A stretch of 64,000 nt of DNA from an uncultured Phycisphaerales bacterium (GCA_937868095.1 CALMLO010000038.1:1-64000); one strand, 5' to 3'; positions 17,817-40,681 are shown, counted from the stretch's first letter. Program-made: numbers and translations. The notes: generated by a model from the letters alone, not told the origin.

Positions 17817-18572
17817 TCAGATACTGCCAAGCAGCCGGAGCAATCCGTCCAGAATCGTCACAGGATGCGGCGGACAGCCGGGAATATACAAATCAACAGG
17901 AATCACGCTATCCACTCCATGATGAACCGGCGACAGACCGATAAAAGGCCCGCCGGAGACGGCACAGGCACCCGCGGCAATGACAATCCGGGGGTCCGCA
18001 ACGGCTTCATACGTTTTCTGCAGAGCCAGCCGCATATTTTCTGTAACCGGGCCTGTAACCAGCAGGCCGTCGGCATGCCGCGGCGAAGCAGCAAATTGGA
18101 TGCCGAAACGGCCCAGATCGAAAACAACGGTGTTCAGCACATTCGTGTCCGCTTCACACGCATTGCAGCCGCCGGCAGAAACCTGACGCAATTTCAAAGA
18201 GCGTCCAAACAGTTCTTTTGTCTTTTTGTCGAGCGCCTGGGCCAGTTTCATTTCATCTCCGCTCACAAGCAGATCGGATTTGCTGCCGGCGGCAAGGCGA
18301 TATTCCCGACTGAATCGTATGGCCTTCGTCGGGCAGACCTGTTCACACTGCCGGCAGAACAGACAGCGCCCCAAATCAATAGTCAGGGCATTTCCTTCCT
18401 TGCTCACAGCCCCCGTAGGACAAACCTCAAGGCACTCTCGGCACTCCGCAGAACACAGACCCGGATTGATTGCCGGCCGGCCGCAGTATTGCTCCGGAAG
18501 AGCAGGAGCCGTTTTCGGATACGAAATGGTTCTATGTTTCTGCTGGAGTCGGGCCAGGCACGCTCTGATCAT
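17817..18572 (-). CDS. Ferredoxin-small-subunit fusion of a group-4-hydrogenase-like (Ehr) complex
   Basis: A 251-residue protein joining a HycF-like electron-transfer domain to a HycG/NuoB-like small subunit. Residues ~36-95 bind two [4Fe4S] clusters: CSAECRECLEVCP and CLFCRQCEQVCP. The second domain has the proximal-cluster Cys motifs GGCNACEAD, GACAVSGG and PGCPPHP. In canonical complexes this subunit passes electrons from ferredoxin to the NiFe site. It is the last gene of a six-gene operon, 9 bases after the large subunit. Here the NiFe cysteines of the partner are missing, so electrons must go elsewhere or the complex works differently. The fused ferredoxin domain replaces a separate hycF-type gene. 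Confidence 0.85.
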   Translation of the reverse strand: MIRACLARLQQKHRTISYPKTAPALPEQYCGRPAINPGLCSAECRECLEVCPTGAVSKEGNALTIDLGRCLFCRQCEQVCPTKAIRFSREYRLAAGSKSDLLVSGDEMKLAQALDKKTKELFGRSLKLRQVSAGGCNACEADTNVLNTVVFDLGRFGIQFAASPRHADGLLVTGPVTENMRLALQKTYEAVADPRIVIAAGACAVSGGPFIGLSPVHHGVDSVIPVDLYIPGCPPHPVTILDGLLRLLGSI

Positions 18573-18581
18573 AATCGCCTC

Positions 18582-20102
18582 TTACAAATCATGTCCGCAA
18601 TACGACAAATTAAAACTTTTATTGCACAGCGGAAAATCCGATATTTGCTGCTCCCGCAGCGCCATCGCCAGCCCCATCCAGTTATGAAAGGATGGATCGA
18701 CAATCTTATAACGGCGGAAGGAACCATCGGCCGCGGTGATCGCCGCATGACAGATTTCTCCCCGCCAGCCCTCCACAAGACTAACGCAGAACAAATTCGG
18801 CGCAGGCGGCTTCATCTCCGTTCGAATAGGACCCTCAGGAAAAGATGCCAGCAGGCCGAGGATAAAATCTATCGACTTTTGGATTTCCAGCCATCGCACA
18901 TAGGCCCGCCCAAACACATCGCCCTTCTCCCACACGGAAACAGCAATTGGAGAAGTTTGGTAAATCCCCGTCGGAAAATCAGCCCGGCAATCCATTGCAA
19001 TCCCGCATGCCCTGGCCGGAACGCCGACCATCCCCAACTCGCGGCAGATGGAGGACTGCACAACGCCGGTATCTTCAAAACGGGCCAGCACAGACGGCGT
19101 ATTCCACAGCAGATTAACCGCTGTGGATACGTCTTTTTTGGCGGCCGTCAGTCTCTCGGCAAGTGTTTCGGCTGTTTTGGGAGTCAGGTCAAAGCAAACC
19201 CCGCCGGGAACCGCCAGCCCTCTGCCGAATCGATTGCCGCACAGAAGAGCACTCATATTCAGAAAATCCCCCCGAATCCTGCCGCAGAAAGAAGACGTCG
19301 GCAGATACCCGATATCGCCGGCAAGAGCCCCCAAATCTCCGGTGTGATTGGCCAGCCGTTCCAACTCCAGGGCAATGCCGCGAATGGCCTGTGCCTTCGG
19401 AGGCACGCAGCCGCCTGCCAGCGATTCCCGCAGCTGACAGTAAGCCGTCGTATGACCGATGCTCGTATCTCCCGCCACCGTCTGCATAAAAGGCAGGAGC
19501 CGTTTTTCCGGCCCGCGGAGAATCGCCTCTTCGATACCCCGATGCTGATATCCCAGCGAGATTTCAAGATGCAGGACAATTTCGCCATGACACTGAAAGC
19601 GAAAATGCCCGGGCTCAATGATGCCCGCATGGACAGGCCCCACGGCAACCTCGTGAACCTCGTGCCCTTCCACCTGAAAATACTTCATAACCGACGGAAG
19701 AATCTGCTCCCTCGTCCGGCCCCACACATCCCTTCTGCCGTCAAACGGAGCATGAAAACGAACCGGCTTCAGCCACGGATGGCCCTCTGGAACAACTCCC
19801 CATTGCTCCGCAATTTCGCGTTCAAACAAATGGGCCTGCGGGCAGTCCGGCGTCAGCGAAGGGTATCGGTCCTGAACATCGCACGACAGGACCGACAGAG
19901 TACCCTGGCCATCGTCGGCAAGAACCGCATAAAGACGCACTCCAGCCCCATCCGCCGGCACAGCGAAAAACGAGGCGATTCGCCCGCCGCCCCCGACCGC
20001 CGCAATCACGGAATCCCGAAACCGCTCGATCGGAATCACCGGAATCTCGCCAACAGCAAGGGACTGACCATTACGAAAGGAAACGGCATAAGGCGTCTGC
20101 AT
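18582..20102 (-). CDS. NuoC/NuoD-like large subunit without NiFe ligands (Ehr type)
   Basis: A 506-residue protein; ATG 20102 follows the previous stop by one base. Residues 1-~160 are NuoC-like (LFEREIAEQWGVVPEGHP); ~165-500 are NuoD/HycE-like (HLEISLGYQHRGIEEA). The N-terminal C-G-x-C motif that binds Ni is replaced by GDTSIGHTTAYCQ (residues 211-223). The C-terminal DPCxxC is absent too: the protein ends NKSFNLSYCGHDL. So it cannot build a NiFe site. This matches energy-converting-hydrogenase-related (Ehr) complexes. It sits with membrane partners and a ferredoxin-like small subunit, so it may couple redox or conformational change to ion transport. Confidence 0.85.
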   Translation of the reverse strand: MQTPYAVSFRNGQSLAVGEIPVIPIERFRDSVIAAVGGGGRIASFFAVPADGAGVRLYAVLADDGQGTLSVLSCDVQDRYPSLTPDCPQAHLFEREIAEQWGVVPEGHPWLKPVRFHAPFDGRRDVWGRTREQILPSVMKYFQVEGHEVHEVAVGPVHAGIIEPGHFRFQCHGEIVLHLEISLGYQHRGIEEAILRGPEKRLLPFMQTVAGDTSIGHTTAYCQLRESLAGGCVPPKAQAIRGIALELERLANHTGDLGALAGDIGYLPTSSFCGRIRGDFLNMSALLCGNRFGRGLAVPGGVCFDLTPKTAETLAERLTAAKKDVSTAVNLLWNTPSVLARFEDTGVVQSSICRELGMVGVPARACGIAMDCRADFPTGIYQTSPIAVSVWEKGDVFGRAYVRWLEIQKSIDFILGLLASFPEGPIRTEMKPPAPNLFCVSLVEGWRGEICHAAITAADGSFRRYKIVDPSFHNWMGLAMALREQQISDFPLCNKSFNLSYCGHDL

Positions 20103-20103
20103 C

Positions 20104-21588
20104 TCAATTCCCCCCCAGCAGCACAGCCGCCGCATTCAACAATCTCCCCAGCGCCGACGGCACATAAAGACCGAGCATCAGGGCCGCCGCCCCAAGAGCC
20201 ATCGGAGGAAGAATCGCCAGTGCCGGCTCCGGCCCCCTGTCGGCACGAAGTTCTTTATTTTTCTCGCCTTGAGCCATATGAACAAAAGCGCTCGCCATCC
20301 CGATAAAGATAAGGGCAAGAATCCCTAAAAACACAACCCCAAGACCGATTTTCCCTTGTTCAATCATCGACTTGACTATCGTAAACTCACTCAGAAAAAG
20401 ACCAAACGGCGGAACCCCTGTAATCGCAAGGAAGCCCGCTAACCACAAGACGCCCGTCATCGGTATAGACGTCAGAACCCCGCTCACCCTGGCGGTTGTT
20501 TTCGTCTTGTAAAAAGCCAGAATATTGCCCGCCGCCATAAACAGCATCGCCTTCGCAAGGGAGTGATTGACCGCGTGCAGCATCGAGCCGAATACGGCCC
20601 CCGCACCCAGCCCTACCCCCAGCGCCATAATCCCGACGTGTTCTACGCTCGAATAGGCCAGCATCCGTTTATAATCCGGCTGACCAAGGATAAAAACGGC
20701 CGCCCAGCCCATGGAGAGCAGGCCAAACAGCACCAGCAGTTCCTGACAGAATAGAGTCAGTCCGGCCGCCATACACACCTGATAACTCCGAAGAATCCCC
20801 AGAAAAGCACAATTCAAAAGCGCCCCGGACAGCAGCGCGGAAATCACGGAAGGCGCTTCACTGTGGGCATCCGGAAGCCACGTATGCAGAGGAGCCAGGC
20901 CCATTTTAGTCCCGTACCCCACCAGACAAAGCAGAAACGCCGCCTTAAGCCACGGCGGATTGAGATGCTCGGCCTGACGCAGAAGAACGCTTAACACCAT
21001 CGTCTTGTCGTCCGACGGGAAGCCGGCCGCCGCAATGACTATAAAAAAATTGCCCAGCAAAGCCAGAGCAATTCCAACTGAACAAATCAGCAGGTATTTC
21101 CACGCCGCCTCCAGCGAGCGATGATGACGATGAAAATAAATCAGAGGCGCACTGACAAGGGTAGTCGCCTCCATCGCCACCCACAGCAGCCCCAGGTGCT
21201 GGCTGACCGTTACGATAGTCATCGTAGTCAAAAACGCCGGAAGGCACGTACAAAAAACGACCTCCGGCGCATTCGTAAAAAGAAATCCTTCTTCGTTATC
21301 CTGTTTTTCACTGCCGGATTCCCGCCCCAGATAGCCGAACGCATAAACAGAGCAGGCCAAAAACAGAACACTGGTGATCGTTAAAAACAGCAGACCCGGC
21401 TCATCCAGCATCATCCAGCCGTTCAGCAGCGGCCCCGGATTGGTATGCCACGCCAGCAGCGTACCGGCCGTATGGCATCCCGCCGCCGCAATCAGAATCG
21501 TACGCCGGACCAGAGCCCCTCCGACAATCAGCGTCAGAACCGCCGAAGCCGCAGGAACAAACAGCAGCACATAAATGATAGTATTCAT
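20104..21588 (-). CDS. HyfF/NuoN-like antiporter subunit of the Ehr complex
   Basis: A 494-residue polytopic membrane protein of the proton-conducting NuoL/M/N family. Typical segments include KAAFLLCLVGYGTKMGLAPLHTWLPDAHSEAPS (the conserved TM with Lys and the LPDAH motif) and RMLAYSSVEHVGIMALGVG. These subunits carry the ion channels of complex I-like enzymes. Start ATG 21588 overlaps the HyfE-like stop by four bases, and the large subunit starts 1 base after its stop, so translation is coupled. Confidence 0.85.
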   Translation of the reverse strand: MNTIIYVLLFVPAASAVLTLIVGGALVRRTILIAAAGCHTAGTLLAWHTNPGPLLNGWMMLDEPGLLFLTITSVLFLACSVYAFGYLGRESGSEKQDNEEGFLFTNAPEVVFCTCLPAFLTTMTIVTVSQHLGLLWVAMEATTLVSAPLIYFHRHHRSLEAAWKYLLICSVGIALALLGNFFIVIAAAGFPSDDKTMVLSVLLRQAEHLNPPWLKAAFLLCLVGYGTKMGLAPLHTWLPDAHSEAPSVISALLSGALLNCAFLGILRSYQVCMAAGLTLFCQELLVLFGLLSMGWAAVFILGQPDYKRMLAYSSVEHVGIMALGVGLGAGAVFGSMLHAVNHSLAKAMLFMAAGNILAFYKTKTTARVSGVLTSIPMTGVLWLAGFLAITGVPPFGLFLSEFTIVKSMIEQGKIGLGVVFLGILALIFIGMASAFVHMAQGEKNKELRADRGPEPALAILPPMALGAAALMLGLYVPSALGRLLNAAAVLLGGN

Positions 21589-22232
21589 GTCCTCAAACTC
21601 GACAGTTTATCTGCATCAATATGATCAAATTCACGATTGATATGAAAAATAGCAATCCCCATCACAAAAACAGCCATAAAAGCATCCAGCAGAATCCCCA
21701 ACTCAATAAGCAGCGGCTGAGTCTCCACCACCGCCGCCCCAAACGCAGAGATGCCGTTTTCCAGAACCAGATAGCCGATGGCCTGCGTAAGTGCTTTCTT
21801 CCGGCTGACCGTCAGGAACAGCCCTGTTACAATCGTAAAGAAAGCCGCCGGAACAATCAGCGCAGACATCCCGGGCTCAGGCAGAGGAAGCCGATGCCCA
21901 AGCCAGATGCACGAGACAAAGGCCGCCATCCCCAGCGCAATCGAAGTCCCGTAGCCGACAAACGGCTCAATCTCCCGTCGGGTCTTGAGTTCCTTCAGAA
22001 GCCGCAGCAGCACCCACGGAAAAACAATCCCCTTCAGGCCGATCAGAACCGCAGAATAAAGACCAAGGTGCAGCGGAATATCCCCCCTGTTCAGCGCCAG
22101 CGGCAGCATCCCCAGCACAATCCCCTGAACCGCCGCAACACGGATGCACGCCCCCAGCCGGCTTAACCCCAGCAGGGCCAGATTGGTAAGCACCAGAAAA
22201 ATCATTATCATATCGACCGTATTATTCATCAT
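21585..22232 (-). CDS. HyfE-like membrane subunit of the Ehr complex
   Basis: A 215-residue membrane protein, almost exactly the size of E. coli HyfE (216). ATG 22232 is chosen because it comes one base after the previous stop (TGAGATG); the longer frame would overlap that gene. It has about six hydrophobic segments; the second half carries a NuoK-like block (IGYLVLENGISAFGAAV), with the buried Glu typical of NuoK subunits. Expected to form part of the ion-translocating membrane arm. Confidence 0.8.
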   Translation of the reverse strand: MMNNTVDMIMIFLVLTNLALLGLSRLGACIRVAAVQGIVLGMLPLALNRGDIPLHLGLYSAVLIGLKGIVFPWVLLRLLKELKTRREIEPFVGYGTSIALGMAAFVSCIWLGHRLPLPEPGMSALIVPAAFFTIVTGLFLTVSRKKALTQAIGYLVLENGISAFGAAVVETQPLLIELGILLDAFMAVFVMGIAIFHINREFDHIDADKLSSLRT

Positions 22233-22233
22233 C

Positions 22234-23148
22234 TCACCTGTAAACAAGAACCAGGGCCAAAACAGAAAGCGCTGCCGCACCAATCAGAAGCGGAGGAATG
22301 CGCAAAAGCCGGATGCGGGCCATGGAGGATTCGACAATGCCTACGAGTACCGCAAGCAGCCCCATGCAAAGCAAAGTGGCCGCCGTATCCAGACAGAGGA
22401 AGCCGCTGTGGATGGGGACGACAACGCCTACCAGGACCAGCCCCAGCAGCCACATCTTCAGGGCGGCGGCATACTGAAGCATCCCCAAATCAAGCCCGCC
22501 GTGATCCAGCACCATCGCCTCATGAATCATCGTCAATTCAAGATGGGTCGTCGGGTCATCGACAGGTATCCTGCAGTTCTCCGACAGAAACACAATAATC
22601 AGCGCAAATCCGACAAGCACAAAAGCAGGACCTGCCGCCGTCCACAAAGCCGGCTGGAGTGAGGCAGCCATCGGCGTAAGGGAAGCATGGCCTGTGATTT
22701 TGGCGATGGCCGCCAGCCCTATCAGCAGCGCCGGCTCGCAAAGAGCGGAAAACGCCGCCTCCCGACTGGACCCCATGCCTTCAAAACTGGAGCCGGTATC
22801 CAGAGCACTGACAATCATAAAGAACCGAAGAAGTCCCAAAAGATAGACAAACACAAGAAAATCGCCGTCGAAGGCAAACACGGCAGGCAGCCCGCCCATC
22901 GGAAGCAGCAAGGCCGCCGTGAGAGTAACCGCCAGACTCACCAGCGGGCCGGCACGAAAAACCCACGATGTCGAAACACTGTAAACCGTACCCTTCCGCA
23001 GCAGCTTCCAGATATCATAATACGGCTGAAGCAGGGGCTGACCCGTTCGCCCTGCAAACCACGCCTTAACACGAATGATGATGCCCAGCAGCAGCGGCGC
23101 CGCCGTAAGAGTAACAGCAAGGTTCAGGATTTTCAGAAGAATCACCAT
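22234..23148 (-). CDS. HyfC/HycD (NuoH-like) membrane subunit of the Ehr complex
   Basis: A 304-residue membrane protein of the NuoH family that links the soluble arm to the membrane arm. Conserved blocks include the N-terminal RTGQPLLQPYYDIWKLLRK (family FGRxGP-x-LQPY-x-D-x-KL-x-K motif, between first helices), DTGSSFEGMGSSREAAFSA and NCRIPVDDPTTHLELTMIHE, whose Glu/Asp residues line the quinone-like cavity in complex I. ATG 23148 directly abuts the HyfB-like stop (TAGATG). Confidence 0.9.
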   Translation of the reverse strand: MVILLKILNLAVTLTAAPLLLGIIIRVKAWFAGRTGQPLLQPYYDIWKLLRKGTVYSVSTSWVFRAGPLVSLAVTLTAALLLPMGGLPAVFAFDGDFLVFVYLLGLLRFFMIVSALDTGSSFEGMGSSREAAFSALCEPALLIGLAAIAKITGHASLTPMAASLQPALWTAAGPAFVLVGFALIIVFLSENCRIPVDDPTTHLELTMIHEAMVLDHGGLDLGMLQYAAALKMWLLGLVLVGVVVPIHSGFLCLDTAATLLCMGLLAVLVGIVESSMARIRLLRIPPLLIGAAALSVLALVLVYR

Positions 23149-25128
23149 CTACATCAGTTTCCACATCAAAAGCAGCCACAGAGTTAAAGCAATATAGAAT
23201 ATGTATATCTGAACACGGCCGTGCTGAAGCCATTGCAGTTTCCCGAACAAGGCACAAATCCACCGGTACAAAGGCAAATACAGGTATCGTTCACCCAAAT
23301 CGGGCGTTTCCGTCTCGAAGGAGGAACGAACGGGGAAAAGGCCTTCAGGCGGCAGAAACTTCTTCCGCGTTTGCAGAAAAACATTGAACAATGCGGTAAT
23401 GGGCTGGGCAAAGGACGTCGCCGTGTACTGCATCCTCGAATCAGGACGGGCATAGCCGCAGTCCCATGTCACCGATTGTCTGACACAGCGGCTCTTCAGC
23501 AGCCGGCAGCGAACGGCCGTCAAACCGAATAAAACAATGGCAAAAACAAGCGAAACAAAAACAAAACCAAGCAGCACGCTCGAAGCACATCCCAGTTCGG
23601 CCTCGATTTGCCCCATCGGCAAGGGAGCGATGGCCGCAATCACATAGGCCGCAGACCTGACAACCCACGGAGAAAGCAGACCCAAAAGCACGCACAAGCA
23701 AGCCAGCACAGCCATGGACAATTTCATCAAGACCCCTGCCTCATGCGACTCCTGCGCCGCCCCGCTCCGCGGATGCCCCAGGAAGACAATGCCGAACGCC
23801 TTCGTGAAGCAAGCCAGCGCCAACCCCCCAATCAGAGCCAGACTGCCGATCACAATCAACGCAAGAACCAGCATCTCAAGTCCATCTCCGCCGTTATTCT
23901 TGAAAACTCCCAGGTAAAGGAGAAACTCGCTGGCAAACCCGTTCAGCGGCGGCAGACCCGATATCGCCGCTGCCCCCACCAGAAATGCAGATGCCGTCCA
24001 CGGCATCCGTTTAATCAGACCCCCAAGTTTATCCAGACACCCTGTTCCGCTGCTGTGCAGAACCGAACCGGCACACAGAAAAAGAAGCCCCTTAAAAACA
24101 GCGTGATTGAGTACATGAAACAGACCGCCCGCAAATCCGAGCACCGCCAGGATGGGGGAATGCAGATGAACGCCCAACAAACCGACCCCCAGGCCGATGG
24201 TAATGATGCCGATATTCTCAACACTGTGATAGGCCAGAAGACGCTTCAAATCATGCTGGGCCAGCGCAAAAAGAACCCCCAAAATGCCGGAAACCGCCCC
24301 TATCATAATCAGCAGCCAGCCCCACCAGGCAGGAGGAGTCCCCAGCAGCATCGCCGCCCTGACCAGACCGTAAATGCCGGTTTTTATCATTACCCCGCTC
24401 ATCACCGCCGAAACATGACTGGGAGCGGCCGGATGGGCATGGGGAAGCCATACATGCAGCGGCATAAAGCCCGCCTTTGTCCCAAACCCCACAACCGCCA
24501 GCAGGAACAGAAGATTGGCCTTGGCCGCAGGAAACATCGGGATTTTGTCGAAATCCAGAGACCCTGTGCCGCTGCTGAGCAGAATAAAGAAAAGAATAAG
24601 GAACGCTGTGCCGATATGCATCGCGATAAGATAGCTCAGCCCCGCCTGGCGAACCGCGGGCTTTTCATACTCGAAGCTCACCAGAAAGAAAGAGGCAACC
24701 GACATAATTTCCCACGCTATCAGAAACAGCAGACCGTTGCCGGCAGCGACGACCAGCATCATCCCAACCAGAAGCAGCGCGTAAAAAAACCACGGAACGC
24801 CAAGATTTTTTCTGCTTTGGTAGGAAGAAAGATACTCAACCCCGTAAACGGCCGCGATAGAAGACAGCCCCAGGATGGGAATCAGGAAAAAAGCAGACAG
24901 AGGATCAAGCCGCAGACAAAACGAACCAAACGGCACCGCCCATGCTATTTGTACAGACTCAGCAGCGCCGCTGAAAAGGACCTTAAAAGCAGGAATGATG
25001 GCCGCAATACTGCCGGCAGCAGTCCCCAAAACACCGCACAAAGAGGCCAATCCCCCTCTGCGCCCGCAGAAAAGGGAGGCCAAACCGCCAATAAAAATAA
25101 TAGCAAAACCACCAATAAAAAGGGACAT
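23149..25128 (-). CDS. HyfB/NuoL-like antiporter subunit of the Ehr complex
   Basis: A 659-residue polytopic protein, the first gene of the operon. It shows NuoL/HyfB landmarks: LIAWEIMSVASFFLVSFE, VGFGTKAGFMPLHVWLPHAH, LKRLLAYHSVENIGI and NHAVFKGLLFLCAG. It probably forms an H+ or Na+ channel. Length and order (B-C-E-F-G-I) follow the hyf/hyc arrangement. ATG 25128 has GGAAAG upstream at a longish distance. The 169 bases before it (25129-25297) hold a rearranged segment with no gene. Confidence 0.88.
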   Translation of the reverse strand: MSLFIGGFAIIFIGGLASLFCGRRGGLASLCGVLGTAAGSIAAIIPAFKVLFSGAAESVQIAWAVPFGSFCLRLDPLSAFFLIPILGLSSIAAVYGVEYLSSYQSRKNLGVPWFFYALLLVGMMLVVAAGNGLLFLIAWEIMSVASFFLVSFEYEKPAVRQAGLSYLIAMHIGTAFLILFFILLSSGTGSLDFDKIPMFPAAKANLLFLLAVVGFGTKAGFMPLHVWLPHAHPAAPSHVSAVMSGVMIKTGIYGLVRAAMLLGTPPAWWGWLLIMIGAVSGILGVLFALAQHDLKRLLAYHSVENIGIITIGLGVGLLGVHLHSPILAVLGFAGGLFHVLNHAVFKGLLFLCAGSVLHSSGTGCLDKLGGLIKRMPWTASAFLVGAAAISGLPPLNGFASEFLLYLGVFKNNGGDGLEMLVLALIVIGSLALIGGLALACFTKAFGIVFLGHPRSGAAQESHEAGVLMKLSMAVLACLCVLLGLLSPWVVRSAAYVIAAIAPLPMGQIEAELGCASSVLLGFVFVSLVFAIVLFGLTAVRCRLLKSRCVRQSVTWDCGYARPDSRMQYTATSFAQPITALFNVFLQTRKKFLPPEGLFPVRSSFETETPDLGERYLYLPLYRWICALFGKLQWLQHGRVQIYIFYIALTLWLLLMWKLM

Positions 25129-40105: not shown

Positions 40106-40681
40106 ATGAAGAAAAAAGATGTCCTGACTACAGGGGAAGTAGCCAAATTGTGTAATGTCGCCCCGCGCACTGTCACGAAATGGTTTGATTCCGGCCAGTT
40201 AAAGGGATACCGGATACCTGGGTCTCGCGACCGCCGCATTCCGACCAGCGAGCTGATTCGCTTTATGAAAGCCAATAATATGCCCACTGACGCCCTTGAA
40301 AAAGGGCAAATGAGGGTCTTGATTATCGACTCCTGCCCGGAAAAAAGCCGGCAATTTGCCGAAGCACTCCAAATGAAGGGGAGTTTCGAGGTCTGCTGTG
40401 CCCATAATAGTTTTGATGCCGGCCTGCTTGCCGAAAAATTCAAACCGCAAGTCATCTTAATTAATCTGATGTCTAATGCCGTGAATGCTCAGCAGTTGTG
40501 CACTTATGTCACCCAGCACCAGGACCTTCAATATACCAAACTGATTGCCATCGCATCAGGGCTGAATGAAAACGAGGTTGCCGCCCTCCGGAAAAAAGGA
40601 TTTGATGCCGTCCTCACCGACCCAACGGATGTTGAGCGGGCTGTCAAACTCATTCAGGACTGCTGCTCCGTGGTCTATTGA
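40106..40681 (+). CDS. MerR/excisionase-type HTH fused to a degenerate response-regulator receiver
   Basis: A 191-residue protein. Residues ~6-55 are an HTH_17/BldC-like DNA-binding domain (LTTGEVAKLCNVAPRTVTKWFDSGQLKGYRIPGSRDRRI split as helix-turn-helix plus wing). Residues ~68-188 have receiver-domain layout: RVLIIDSCPEK, KPQVILINLMS, YTKLIAIASG, FDAVLTDPTD. The phosphoacceptor Asp is Asn (ILIN), the acidic pair is reduced to one Asp, and the Lys is Asp (TDP for KP). So it cannot be phosphorylated in the normal way. ATG 40106 has AGGA upstream. It stands alone between rny and bioB (divergent from one, convergent with the other). Confidence 0.8.
   Translation: MKKKDVLTTGEVAKLCNVAPRTVTKWFDSGQLKGYRIPGSRDRRIPTSELIRFMKANNMPTDALEKGQMRVLIIDSCPEKSRQFAEALQMKGSFEVCCAHNSFDAGLLAEKFKPQVILINLMSNAVNAQQLCTYVTQHQDLQYTKLIAIASGLNENEVAALRKKGFDAVLTDPTDVERAVKLIQDCCSVVY

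Follow-up and report, generated by a model that had tools for sequence, protein, structure and literature searches.

Can a complex built like a hydrogenase still work once its hydrogen site is gone? The locus that raises this question lies in a stretch of 64,000 nucleotides from an uncultured Phycisphaerales bacterium (GCA_937868095.1, CALMLO010000038.1:1-64000), which as a whole is called the window below. The minus strand of the window carries six consecutive open reading frames (ORFs) at 17817-25128, tightly packed hyf-like genes that form an intact operon. This is almost certainly an Ehr (Ech hydrogenase-related) operon without NiFe, and it is an ordinary member of a known, widespread and uncharacterised family. 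The broader statement, that Ehr is a membrane-bound, ion-pumping oxidoreductase derived from group 4 hydrogenases, is given a probability of roughly 0.75. This figure leaves the electron acceptor aside.

In the order of transcription, Pfam and NCBIfam matches show a HyfB-like, a NuoH/HyfC-like, a HyfE-like and a HyfF-like protein, then a large subunit in which the 30 kDa and 49 kDa domains are fused, and finally a ferredoxin-NuoB fusion. This matches the order HyfB, HyfC, HyfE, HyfF, HyfG (with both 30 kDa and 49 kDa domains) and a 2x[4Fe-4S]-NuoB fusion. Neighbouring genes overlap or abut, with spacings of -4 to +9 bases. The claim of the initial annotation that all six hyf/hyc-like subunits are present, in order and tightly coupled, therefore stands. 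The subunit set is of the group 4 type and includes antiporter-like subunits, as is characteristic of an Ehr complex. The genes are called ehrA, B, C, D, L and S here.

The large subunit, EhrL, is where the hydrogen site should be. Its residues are numbered from the opening of the ORF at 20135; the start is probably at 20102, one base past the ehrD stop. When EhrL is aligned to the full E. coli HycE and HyfG, all four Ni-ligand cysteines turn out to be replaced, by A221, T224, S511 and G514. The N-terminal C-G-I-C of HycE and HyfG corresponds to A221-G-D-T224, and the C-terminal D-P-C-Y-S-C to N509-L-S511-Y-C513-G514. The earlier reading of GDTSIGH in place of CGxC was right in substance, with AGDT as the exact replacement, and the same alignment bears out the ending SFNLSYCGHDL in place of DPCxxC. 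EhrL stops at HDL, the position of the HycE TDR immediately before the HycE C-terminal extension. HycE is cut at that TDR position during maturation, as is established for this enzyme. Since EhrL already ends at the hydrogenase processing site, it does not need the protease step. EhrL lacks the marks of a group 4 [NiFe] hydrogenase, namely the CxxC and DPCxxC Ni ligands and the C-terminal maturation extension that most members have.

The pocket is not simply that of complex I. E174 of EhrL is the proton-path glutamate of hydrogenases, equal to E21 of MbhL, and it is kept. The His and Tyr that hold the quinone headgroup in complex I (NuoD) are absent; I173 and G222 stand there. Eight pocket residues, E174, H177, C182, D223, H228, Y512, C513 and D516, are invariant in 39 sequences from many phyla.

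The remainder of the machinery is largely in place. EhrS retains 12 Fe-S cysteines (4+4+4), so the initial annotation was correct that all are kept, although the first ferredoxin motif reads C-x3-C-x2-C-x3-C, with Cx3C where Cx2C is expected. This spacing recurs in 61 of 66 readable relatives and is thus a mark of the Ehr family. The proximal cluster of EhrS has its full ligand set, with the hydrogenase-spaced CxxC...C...C. In EhrA the channel residues aligned with NuoM E144, K234, K265 and E407 are E, K, K and E. EhrD retains E, K and E; where NuoM has K265 it has N, like HyfF. Given the Fe-S cysteines, most of the antiporter residues and four replaced ligands, the view that the electron-transfer and ion-pumping parts remain while the hydrogen site is gone is upheld.

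One scan of genomes delivered at least 543 confirmed relatives, 80 of which were fetched for comparison of their loci. They are found in Planctomycetota, Verrucomicrobiota, Kiritimatiellota, Lentisphaerota, Thermodesulfobacteriota (including Geobacteraceae), Myxococcota, Acidobacteriota, Elusimicrobiota, Spirochaetota and others. The same ligand replacements are seen in nine relatives of 40-68% identity. Of the 80 independent loci, 73 share the identical tail NKSFNLSYCGHDL, and an AGDT-like pattern is matched in 69. A few relatives keep the first-position cysteine, as CGDT in L114 and L131. Chance and an assembly error at the motif codons were also considered. Both are ruled out because the replacement pattern recurs, with identical letters, across many independent genomes and phyla.

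Between two species of the window's genus, the ratio of nonsynonymous to synonymous substitution (dN/dS) is 0.114 for EhrA, 0.083 for EhrD, 0.090 for EhrL and 0.055 for EhrS; a neighbouring glycosidase has 0.096. The ehr subunits are thus under purifying selection in close relatives. Two of five congeners have no match to ehr. The operon is dispensable, yet it is not decaying where it is kept.

Table 1 Coordinates of the ehr genes and of the altered EhrL motifs, counted from the first base of the window.
Feature	Coordinates	Strand	Basis
ehrA, HyfB/NuoL-like antiporter subunit, 659 aa	23149..25128	-	ORF, domain matches, channel residues E, K, K, E
ehrB, HyfC/NuoH-like membrane anchor, 304 aa	22234..23148	-	PF00146
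ehrC, HyfE-like membrane subunit	21585..22232	-	ORF open from 22283, likely ATG ~22232
ehrD, HyfF/NuoM-like antiporter subunit, 494 aa	20104..21588	-	E, K, E kept, N at NuoM K265 position
ehrL, large subunit, NuoC+NuoD domains	18582..20102	-	ORF open from 20135, likely start 20102
A221-G-D-T224 replacing CGxC Ni ligands in EhrL	19464..19475	-	Alignment
EhrL C-terminal tail SFNLSYCGHDL replacing DPCxxC, without cleavable extension	18585..18617	-	Alignment
ehrS, two-cluster [4Fe-4S] ferredoxin domain fused to NuoB-like proximal-cluster domain, 251 aa	17817..18572	-	

In many lineages ehrA comes as a tandem pair, for example at L131:2956-7000 and L058:6034-10077. The window has a single ehrA.

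Placed in a tree of 60 large subunits, with NuoD as root and without Mbx, EhrL lies next to HycE/HyfG and outside the true hydrogenases; the clustering within true hydrogenases that would have refuted the initial annotation is not seen. All ligand-less large subunits, EhrL included, form one clade (support 100/99), which has a single origin. Together with four Planctomycetota sequences of family f52 this clade is supported at 100/100, and the combined group joins E. coli HycE/HyfG (99/98), apart from other hydrogenases. These deep placements need some care, given the long branches of L011, L072 and NuoD. The proposed Ehr-type identity is supported by this clade and by the gene set, which is the EhrA-EhrS set of Geobacter (PMC7894505).

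Within the clade, the window EhrL pairs with that of a Phycisphaerales bacterium (96/90), and it belongs to a small group that also takes in Sedimentisphaerales and the congeners of the window's bacterium (100/98). It is not the copy closest to those of the congeners. The flanks differ too: by eye there is a DprA-like gene in the window, as against a glycoside hydrolase family 2 gene in the congeners. Loss and lateral movement of ehr inside the class would fit the tree position, the differing flanks and the two congeners without a match.

The fold points the same way. The AlphaFold model of EhrL, with a mean predicted local distance difference test score (pLDDT) of 82.7, best matches HycE of formate hydrogenlyase (Z 39.5, root mean square deviation 2.7, 479 residues), followed by NuoCD of complex I (Z around 34). 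Folded alone, the tail at 502-517 has a pLDDT below 50.

The four f52 sequences (L203-L206, for example L203:9341-10933) branch deeply; they keep RICGVC and end in SFELCYSCTDL, with no C-terminal extension. Their large subunits sit in a six-gene operon with an Ehr-type fused small subunit. Read on the tree, this suggests an order from a hydrogenase with the extension, by way of four cysteines without the extension, to no cysteines at all. The four-cysteine relatives would then be intermediates between a hydrogenase and a pump without NiFe, which may be new. HypD is present in most genomes that have relatives of this type. It is unmatched in G126 (one contig, 99% complete) and in G108 (99% complete), both of which have a match of this type, read directly as four cysteines in G126. 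If the absence in G126 holds, its four cysteines bind something besides the Hyp-made cofactor. A ligand-less large subunit of family f80, L207 (4698-6836), has SGDS and ends in NLSYAGNDL. Its adjacent small subunit lacks the ferredoxin domain, and electrons would therefore need another entry.

The genome of the window measures 3.04 Mb in 69 contigs, is 99.6% complete, and has EhrL as its sole complex-I-type large subunit. It carries HypD and HypF together, HypB, a complete-looking Rnf set, and a MenA that adjoins MenG. It also has an NAD(P)-linked group-3b NiFe hydrogenase, a NiFeSe-like NiFe hydrogenase and one [FeFe] hydrogenase. The search for hyp maturation genes that the initial annotation proposed is uninformative in this genome, because two other NiFe hydrogenases account for the hyp genes. 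Only across genomes does it become informative: in five of seven genomes that carry Ehr and belong to other classes of this phylum (90-92% complete), HypD has no match, so Ehr seems not to need the NiFe-cofactor pathway. As a further observation, L051:5396-12933 (G000 contig C57) has a NuoE-NuoF-like fusion and a glutamate-synthase-small-subunit-like Fe-S protein. By eye, that cluster also has a ferredoxin of the twin-arginine translocation (Tat) type and a membrane Fe-S protein, possibly making up a further redox complex.

Outside the window, ehr operons have a companion. A fusion of about 238 amino acids of a helix-turn-helix (HTH) domain, HTH_17, with a type 2 EIIA domain of the phosphotransferase system (PTS) lies directly upstream of ehrA in 54 of the 61 named loci with readable upstream sequence, in several phyla (for example L054:16376-17092). 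Its EIIA phospho-His motif GIAIPH is conserved. Among 294 genomes of the phylum, 20 have strong matches to both EhrL and the regulator, 6 have only EhrL and 5 only the regulator (Fisher p of about 2e-21, uncorrected for relatedness). We chose the cut-offs for this, 600 and 240 bits, and counted by hand from tables. EhrL and the regulator share one contig in 16 of the 20 genomes that have both.

Upstream of the regulator gene there is an exact direct repeat, TGTC-N6-TGTC, in 17 of 56 loci versus 0.5% of control windows; since an enrichment search on an overlapping set brought it to light, the effect size is somewhat flattered. TGTCC-type direct repeats ten bases apart lie some 30-95 bases upstream of the gene, for example in L117, L115 and L089. 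These are a candidate operator, and a site for an HTH of the MerR/excisionase-like kind is plausible. In the open-licence literature, no report was found of an HTH-EIIA regulator beside hydrogenase-like genes. The conserved regulator points to control of Ehr by PTS and phosphoenolpyruvate (PEP), and together with its candidate operator it may be new. In the window's genome the regulator has no close counterpart. A search for a remnant near the window's ehrA gave none, only a weak HTH-only match at 40112-40294, and no TGTC-type repeat lies within 400 bases before ehrA. L102 and L105, from Kiritimatiellota, do not have the regulator; there a small membrane protein, by eye similar to ATP synthase subunit I, abuts ehrA upstream, and an AtpZ-like gene is a few kb off.

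How might such a complex work? As the initial annotation noted, and in agreement with the literature, the catalytic role of Ehr is not settled. A redox-driven ion pump is the likely answer. Reduced ferredoxin, the most likely donor, would give electrons to the two ferredoxin clusters of EhrS. The electrons would pass on to the proximal [4Fe-4S] cluster and, in what was once the NiFe pocket of EhrL, reach an acceptor different from protons. The redox event would be relayed via EhrB to EhrC, EhrA and EhrD, which would export H+ or Na+. We infer the donor, the direction of flow and the pumping; ferredoxin is chosen because of the ferredoxin-type clusters and because the operon has no flavin subunit. 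Menaquinone would be the most likely acceptor, bound in a way unlike that of complex I, which would make Ehr a ferredoxin:menaquinone pump. This last step is a guess, to which we give somewhat less than even odds. It is favoured because the genome makes menaquinone, because an acceptor above the proton couple would allow more ions to be moved, and because the neighbourhood encodes no soluble partner.

Several observations weigh against this picture. The missing quinone residues and the retained glutamate, both described above, do not suit menaquinone. In the other classes of the phylum, most genomes with Ehr have no match to classic MenA, though another prenyltransferase may take its place there. 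Among the 80 named relatives no neighbour family other than the regulator occurs in more than two loci, and no electron donor or acceptor enzyme recurs. Finally, we found no biochemistry of any Ehr in the literature.

The same pocket can be read differently, as a site where a small or soluble acceptor is reduced in a proton-coupled reaction, or as the seat of a different cofactor. Eight invariant residues are more than an empty pocket requires, and the hydrogenase glutamate is there while both quinone residues are not; there is no candidate substrate however, and the tail is poorly modelled when EhrL is folded alone. We regard this as possible but doubtful. Sulfane or polysulfide reduction at the proximal cluster, as in the membrane-bound sulfane reductase (MBS), is less probable still. 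MBS likewise lost NiFe in an antiporter-bearing complex, and reduces polysulfide at that cluster (PMC7684303), but its cluster is incompletely ligated, its motif is shorter and the glutamate is lost, whereas Ehr keeps both glutamate and hydrogenase spacing. The P. furiosus MBS large subunit (PDB) is also a far weaker match to EhrL than HycE is (9.4e-18 versus 5.9e-46).

For Riflemargulisbacteria and Saganbacteria it has been proposed that a formate dehydrogenase (FDH) feeds Ehr in a short respiratory chain, based on fdhA and nuoEF-like genes (PMC6349859), and Ehr subunits are more abundant in formate-grown Geobacter (PMC7894505). Yet neither this genome nor any of 11 relatives has a match to the molybdopterin oxidoreductase family PF00384, which was found in 11 of 14 control genomes, so that the proposal cannot be general. 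Unless the catalytic subunit hides in an assembly gap it is refuted here, and with the regulator as sole recurrent neighbour we consider it very improbable. The window's genome thus rules out FDH as an obligate partner, and a Hyp-dependent cofactor is excluded by several genomes that carry Ehr. Ehr is described as already nonfunctional in a 2026 study of evolved Geobacter strains (PMC13194489), but that the operon is a relic under relaxed selection is scarcely credible when six genes are intact, dN/dS is 0.055-0.114 in congeners and the tail is conserved across phyla. Nor do we give any appreciable credence to a hydrogenase with unusual ligands. Hyc/Hyf-type descent and hyp genes in the genome might hint at it, but none of the four positions has a cysteine, Ehr occurs in genomes free of HypD, and the hyp genes belong with the two other NiFe hydrogenases.

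A more far-reaching and tentative reading, which we hold to be rather improbable, sets Ehr beside hydrogenase, MBS and complex I as a functional class of its own, the fourth. The pocket, with its proton glutamate and the invariant D223, H228, C513 and D516, would do a proton-coupled reduction that is new among these relatives. In most lineages, a dedicated HTH-EIIA regulator responsive to PTS phosphorylation would bind the TGTCC direct repeats. If true, the pump would be coupled to the cell's PEP/PTS state.

Comparison with known systems places Ehr most easily beside its namesake in Geobacter sulfurreducens (GSU0739-0745), which has the same EhrA, B, C, D, L and S set and no NiFe site (PMC7894505, PMC13194489). 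The Geobacteraceae loci L123 and L144 fall in the same clade as the window EhrL and have nearly the same tail. Geobacter differs in having two ehrA copies where the window has one, and L123 and L144 carry the HTH-EIIA gene upstream, which the window lacks. The closest proteins of known function are those of E. coli Hyc and Hyf (formate hydrogenlyase and hydrogenase 4), which share the subunit types, the CxxC of the proximal cluster and the proton glutamate. Unlike these, Ehr has neither Ni ligands nor a C-terminal extension, its HyfH is fused to HyfI, and the operon lacks HyfA, HyfD, HyfJ, HyfR and an FDH gene.

With Pyrococcus MBS (and Mbx), Ehr has in common that it is a NiFe-less, antiporter-bearing ferredoxin oxidoreductase. 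MBS retains two of the four cysteines, and three cysteines ligate its proximal cluster, whereas Ehr keeps none of the four and has full cluster ligands. Neither the proton glutamate nor the quinone His or Tyr is present in MBS, and in complex I the proximal-cluster cysteines are adjacent (PMC7684303). Neither the shortened three-cysteine motif nor the loss of the glutamate is seen in the window's Ehr. Complex I shares the fold and the membrane modules, and has no NiFe ligands either; Ehr differs from it by having no NADH module, no quinone His and Tyr, and CxxC instead of CC. Because E174 is kept, the quinone His and Tyr are absent and EhrS keeps CxxC, Ehr fully matches none of these three characterised types. 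It is a widespread relative of complex I, set apart from both complex I and MBS by the residues of its pocket.

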